DNA of 40,347 nt from Oscillospiraceae bacterium (GTDB taxonomy: Bacteria; Bacillota; Clostridia; Oscillospirales; Oscillospiraceae): NCBI GenBank assembly GCA_009787995.1, contig WQSH01000012.1:1-40347 (forward strand), in the 5' to 3' direction. The notes beneath the pieces were generated by a model. It searched no databases and was not told the DNA's origin. It worked only from the letters and a program-made list of their open reading frames with translations. Position 1 is the stretch's first letter. Every line of letters begins with the position of its first letter. Position numbers and translations under genes: made by a program. Shown here in pieces: positions 39,754-40,347 of the stretch.

Positions 39754-40146
39754 TCATTTCACCCCGATTTCAGAGAGCCAAGCTTTTACCTTGTCGGGGG
39801 CGGAAGCCACCTCTTCGCCCTTTATGGCAAAGCTTGCCAGAACTGTCGAATTTGGGCATAGCGCCGTGATATCCGCTGCGACATTTTGCAGCCCGCCCAT
39901 GCCGTGAGTGCAGAAGGGGACAACGGTCTTCCCGGATAGGTCCTTAGCTTCCAGGTATGCCTTGACCTCAGGGACGATTGTAGCTGCGTAGTTCGGCGAA
40001 CCGACAAAAACGGTGTCAAACGCTGCGACATCCGTGTTGTCCGCAACCTTTGCAAGCGTCCCGCCGACTTCAGCATGAATAAATTGCGCCAGCTTCTCGG
40101 TGTTTCCGCTCTGTGACCAGTAGACCACTAAAGAATTTTTGCTCAT
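39754..40146 (-). CDS. Flavodoxin
   Basis: VVYWSQSGNTEKLAQFI FMN-binding loop, VFVGSPNYAATIVPEVKAYL, VVPFCTHGMGGLQN. Confidence 0.92.
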   Translation of the reverse strand: MSKNSLVVYWSQSGNTEKLAQFIHAEVGGTLAKVADNTDVAAFDTVFVGSPNYAATIVPEVKAYLEAKDLSGKTVVPFCTHGMGGLQNVAADITALCPNSTVLASFAIKGEEVASAPDKVKAWLSEIGVK

Positions 40147-40169
40147 ATTTTGTCCTCCAAATAAATAAA

Positions 40170-40347
40170 ATGGATTGGTTACAATTCAGTGTCTGCTATC
40201 AGTCCGGCATTGAGAAGCCTGCACACTCCTCTACGCTCGGTCAGCTGACGTGACAGTAGCCGGAATTCCCTCTCTACGATGAGCGCACAGGCTTCTCAAT
40301 GCCTGCTACTAGGTTTTCTTGGCTGGCACTGAATTGTTACAATGGAT
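40170..40347. repeat. Nested inverted-repeat element (MITE-like or structured RNA leader), possibly continuing past the window
   Basis: ACAATTCAGTG (40181-40191)/CACTGAATTGT (outer, near 40328-40338), GGCATTGAGAAGCCTG (40206-40221)/CAGGCTTCTCAATGCC (40288-40303), flanking ATGGAT at 40170-40175 and 40342-40347. Confidence 0.55.

Follow-up and report, generated by a model that had tools for sequence, protein, structure and literature searches.

A 163-bp sequence at the end of the analysed DNA is very probably a non-autonomous transposable element (MITE) of the IS66 type that carries a core hairpin module. Its interior forms a hairpin module confined to the genus, with a 36-nt tip that is conserved, and in sister species the same core module sits on hairpins with other arms, mostly without IS66-type ends. 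The analysed DNA, called the window, comprises the first 40,347 bases of contig C12 of an Oscillospiraceae MAG (genome G000, 2.42 Mb in 163 contigs, about 97% complete); the contig extends 268 bases further, starting with an NN gap. The features are as follows:

39754 to 40146, minus strand: flavodoxin gene, a neighbour outside the element (PF12682, E 2.3e-13); 31 bp separate its start codon from the element
40169 to 40176, no strand: probable left target duplication, AATGGATT, with one extra G at 40177, placed by the 8-bp rule from other copies
40178 to 40340, no strand: very probable IS66-type MITE, complete, 163 bp, GTTACAATTCAGTG...CACTGAATTGTTAC, with boundaries common to the aligned copies and at least 40 copies in its own genome
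40178 to 40196, plus strand: left outer arm, a terminal inverted repeat with the same ends as the IS66-family element L228
40206 to 40231, plus strand: left inner arm of the central hairpin, with an extension beyond its 16 perfect pairs
40237 to 40272, plus strand: 36-nt apical core, matched by sequence model R1; genomes G002, G006 and G016 have it at the tips of hairpins whose arms are different
40278 to 40303, minus strand: right inner arm of the central hairpin
40322 to 40340, minus strand: right outer arm, a terminal inverted repeat with the same ends as L228
40341 to 40347, no strand: right target duplication, 7 of 8 bases visible (AATGGAT), followed by the NN gap

The element at the end of the window

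The initial annotation had described a nested inverted-repeat element at 40170-40347, either a MITE or a structured RNA upstream of flavodoxin. The element proper is shorter (40178-40340), with both ends inside the window, but all of the sequences described are present. The outer arms ACAATTCAGTG and CACTGAATTGT lie at 40181-40191 and 40327-40337 and extend to a pair of 19 nt that is 84% complementary, while the inner arms GGCATTGAGAAGCCTG and CAGGCTTCTCAATGCC (40206-40221 and 40288-40303) belong to a 26-nt arm pair (85%). The repeated CGTAGAG reads on the plus strand as CTCTACG at 40229-40235 and 40272-40278, and the palindromes are GTCAGCTGAC at 40240-40249 and GGAATTCC at 40262-40269. The element folds far more stably than its shuffled versions (z -5.5 on the minus and -5.4 on the plus strand), with 0 of 200 shuffles equally stable, and the inner arms of one other copy (L007) carry a compensatory change, GGCATTTAG/CTAAATGCC. 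Among the window ORFs, none of 60 aa or more falls within 40178-40340. At 163 bp and with no transposase gene the element lies in the MITE size range of 50-500 bp, its 19-nt outer arms form terminal inverted repeats, and it is dispersed in many copies, whose target duplications have a fixed length.

The genome-wide copy search proposed in the initial annotation returned 40 strong places in the own genome, most of them 83-98% identical, and the MITE reading is borne out by this dispersal together with the duplications and ends described below. The central 24-mer, with up to 3 mismatches, was likewise found at 40 places, against 0 for the reversed pattern; the core model gave 44 matches and the end sequences 73, some of them without the core. 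In the alignment, the copies share the boundaries GTTAC...GTTAC. A search of 60 genomes for the element added a single further genome, G016 (Oscillospiraceae MAG Co191P1bin31, WQRL01), in which the core alone matched, and a search of phages and plasmids found no element. Forms of 53 bp and 79 bp (L114, L115, L116, L119) might have been ancestors of the full element, but deletion between short direct repeats, CARTGCCTGCTA or GCCTGC, is the simpler explanation for them.

Target duplications give the clearest trace of insertion. Exact 8-bp repeats stand at the boundaries of 6 of 23 distinct end pairs (TTTGCCAT, ATGTAGGG, AGGCAATT, CAATAGAT, CATCAGTT and GCAGCAGC), compared with 1 of 506 mispaired ends (0.2%). 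One further end pair has a direct repeat matching at 7 of 8 positions, and others match if a slipped end is allowed (TAAAAACG in L020 and GCACAAAT in L115); many copies have no readable duplication. For the window copy, ATGGAT at 40170-40175 and 40342-40347 had been taken as a 6-bp target duplication. The direct repeat is there, but seven letters (AATGGAT) are visible and the rule of the family is 8 bp. Extension past 40347 leads directly into the NN gap, which starts at 40348, and the AATGGAT repeat would be part of an 8-bp duplication whose right copy has an N as its eighth base.

The assignment to IS66 comes from comparison with L228, an intact 1895-bp IS66-family element in the same-genus genome G006, which has a 514-aa ORF with a PF03050 domain, lies between two copies of the 8-bp repeat CTTTTTCA and ends in GTAACTATTCAGTTAG and GTAACTGTTCAGTTAC. 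The MITE ends are GTTACAATTCAGTG and GTAACAATTCAGTG, and these GTWAC.ATTCAGTG ends match those of L228, while other IS66 elements in the genus begin with GTAAGCG. Duplications of 8 bp have been recorded for IS66 elements elsewhere (PMC3281130). Because of the 8-bp duplications and the ends held in common with L228, the element is classed as an IS66-type MITE. It also resembles IS-derived MITEs in being small, gene-free and intergenic, but differs from them in that its interior is a nested hairpin with a conserved tip and holds no relic of a transposase gene.

A second difference, this time from IS66-family insertion sequences, is that the own assembly gave no match to the IS66 transposase (PF03050), which is present in seven same-genus genomes. 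This absence is uncertain in an assembly that is interrupted at repeats and about 97% complete; it lowers the claim of present activity, not that of origin. A likely course of events is that an IS66-family transposase acted in trans on the GTWAC.ATTCAGTG ends and has since been lost from the strain or is missing from the assembly. Copies would have inserted mostly between genes, the window copy landing 31 bp upstream of flavodoxin by chance.

Taken as a MITE the element is ordinary, and its copies seem to interrupt this assembly, which would account for the many breaks. At least 14 contig ends of G000 lie inside element copies, often in the core (C17, C23, C26, C30, C39, C42, C59, C64, C82, C91, C100, C111, C120 and C148). 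Two copies, L008 and L013 on contigs C106 and C113, have nearly the same left flank and different right flanks, with a duplication in L013 only, a pattern that reflects either recombination between copies or misassembly. In L010 (C50) and L028 (C91) a second, partial right end follows the first, in an arrangement identical in both contigs. Past the NN gap of the window contig, 266 bp (L001, C12:40350-40615) contain a short truncated ORF; a sequence of about 95 bp in this piece, CCGAGTTTGCCACTTAGTTAGC...CTTTTATGAT, recurs at the start of C94 (L125) and is another repeat at contig ends.

The conserved tip and its paired arms

The 36-nt core has the consensus TTCGGTCAGTTCCGTGACAGTAGCCGGAATTCCCTC, with a mean column identity of 86% over 16 types. 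Its model matched 44 times in G000, 15 times in G016, 10 times in G002, 3 times in G006 and once, weakly, in G017, with no matches in the other 14 genomes of the genus. In the sister species G002, G006 and G016 the core is nearly always the tip of a long hairpin whose arms differ between copies; the exceptions to this placement are the G017 match and one truncated G002 copy. Outside the main family, IS66-type ends accompany 1 of 21 core loci, compared with 1 of 961 random centres, which shows that the core module can be separated from these ends. The one exception, L038 in G016, has IS66-type ends and a near duplication, CACTCAAG/CATTCAAG, matching at 7 of 8 positions.

The distribution of the core is narrow. 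In a collection of 84,980 genomes, core hairpins came from the G016 MAG only; the core was absent at up to 2 mismatches from the searched same-family genomes of other genera, and it was absent from viral contigs. Single core hits in four unrelated bacteria (L106, L107, L108, L112) have no capped hairpin and look like chance. The weak G017 match (L222, C16:10529-10559, minus strand) lies within a dprA-like ORF (SVNFVPVAGIHS) and is perhaps an old in-frame insertion.

Conservation is divided sharply between tip and stem. Among nine G002 copies, pairing between the two arms of a copy reaches 94%, likeness of the arms from copy to copy is 63% and that of the core 98%; in nine G016 copies of a second subtype the corresponding values are 88%, 58% and 94%, and random 30-mers average 32% by the same alignment. 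The covariation that the initial annotation had suggested looking for is present: of the 288 cells in the ungapped alignment of G002 copies, 283 hold standard pairs, and 24 of 25 arm pairs occur in at least two Watson-Crick forms. With many copies, covarying arms and both ends inside the window, the outcome that the initial annotation named as refuting its reading (single copy, no covariation, no matching end past the window) did not arise. One G016 copy (L214) has a compensatory change in the stem of the tip as well, with AGTTTCGG..CCGAAATT for AGTTCCGG..CCGGAATT.

Arm pairing maintained by one strand, whether as RNA or as single-stranded DNA, would be expected to leave an excess of G.T (G.U) pairs on the strand concerned. 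In the pooled genomes, arm mismatches read as G.T on the minus versus the plus strand in a ratio of 51:18 (two-sided p 9e-5), with each combination of genome, position and pair counted once and the test chosen after the data had been seen. This bias is a lead rather than proof of an RNA: the test is post hoc, and C-to-T mutation favouring one strand would give the same picture. In addition, the apical pair, which does not vary, reads as G.T on the plus strand, and arms in G002 are almost devoid of such pairs (no G.T in 225 arm-pair cells). The hunch of a structured molecule holds in part, given the conserved tip and the covarying arms of the inner hairpin in related species and the preference of its non-Watson-Crick pairs for the minus strand.

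We regard it as nearly an even question whether a putative factor recognises the tip when one strand, more likely the minus strand, is folded on itself, with a stem of any sequence as long as it is paired and with the MITE carrying this hairpin as payload. The search for a candidate tip-binding factor found none. Such a factor, if it exists, would be a new hairpin-binding activity. More tentatively, and with some doubt on our part, the 36-nt tip may define a new kind of interspersed hairpin, in which the apex is recognised, in the form of one folded strand, by a putative reader factor, any paired stem suffices, the second arm is copied from the first and the carriers differ; carriers of the same tip are an IS66-type MITE in the window species and REP-like arms in another species.

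Alternatively, the capped hairpins may have no role in the cell. Template switching while DNA is replicated (quasi-palindrome correction) would keep the arms identical, and the core would appear conserved owing to the recent age of the copies or to their spread by recombination. The 0 of 225 G.T pairs in the G002 arms are what DNA-level copying predicts and what selection on an RNA usually does not, and the likeness of most own-genome copies fits a recent spread. This account leaves unexplained, however, why the G002 copies are so much more alike in the core than in the arms, why the mismatches are biased between strands and why the tip stem of L214 changed in a compensatory manner, and we consider it a rather unlikely explanation. 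The arms form a natural series of paired sequences that allows selection for folding to be told apart from arm copying at the DNA level.

Relation to other interspersed repeats

REPINs and BIMEs are likewise interspersed long hairpins with compensatory changes, and some G002 core hairpins have REP-like arms. In REPINs, however, the outer REPs are conserved and the compensatory changes are found in the variable spacer (PMC3116915). The capped hairpin inverts this usual rule: the tip is conserved and the stems are free to change as long as they stay paired. That the window element is of the REP/REPIN type, moved by a RAYT tyrosine transposase, is accordingly quite improbable, even though REPs and REPINs occur in the genus, RAYTs are found in some of its members, and two core hairpins of G002 have REPs as their arms. 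The window family has 8-bp duplications, its interior is conserved where REPINs conserve their ends, and no match to RAYT (PF01797) was obtained in G000, G002 and G016, the three genomes with the most copies.

REPs of the type AGGGGACGGTTCTTCTGTCT number about 99 in G002 and 283 in G010, and the large REP families of the type AGGGGACGGTTCNTCTGTCT have 99 matches in G002, 283 in G010, 45 in G013 and 36 in G011. The G002 REPs are without an evident mover, given that this genome has no RAYT match, and REPINs with unrelated loops are also present there.

Another parallel to the IS66-type MITE is QMITE2 of Coxiella burnetii, which an excerpt of PMC10969869 describes as having terminal repeats of 23-29 bp, duplications of 7-9 bp, a core of 113-145 bp and a strongly folded transcript. 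Both are MITEs with terminal repeats, duplications and a strong fold; the difference is that the excerpt on QMITE2 makes no mention of a conserved tip common to hairpins with other arms.

Gene context of the copies

Almost every copy of the element in the own genome is intergenic. Only one ORF runs across a copy; this 81-aa frame, at a tandem copy, is unlikely to be a gene. The strands of the flanking genes are mixed (-/- 7, -/+ 6, +/- 5, +/+ 4), with no orientation bias. A scan of the element for promoter-like or terminator-like sites found none. Rfam gave no match at the gathering score for the window or for ten core-hairpin loci with Rfam 15, and at E values up to 10 the element had chance matches only.

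That the element acts in cis as a regulatory RNA leader for flavodoxin, with a minus-strand transcript that can fold in alternative ways, is scarcely credible: its position 31 bp upstream of the start codon and its strong minus-strand fold would suit such a role, but at least 40 copies lie beside unrelated genes in unbiased orientation, Rfam has no match and the element has no promoter-like or terminator-like site. For a flavodoxin-specific riboregulator, no evidence was found, and it is this gene-specific part of the structured-RNA proposal that lacks support.

Rickettsia palindromic elements (RPEs), which an excerpt of PMC10969869 notes for frequent in-frame insertions, are palindromic elements of a similar size, about 150 bp. 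They differ from the window element in that the copies of the latter in its own genome are nearly all intergenic. An RPE-like insertion is seen in one clear case, L183 on contig C115 (minus strand), where a radical SAM gene contains a divergent core hairpin in its reading frame. The insertion adds about 43 residues that are missing from the orthologues in G004, G013 and G015, which align to either side of it.
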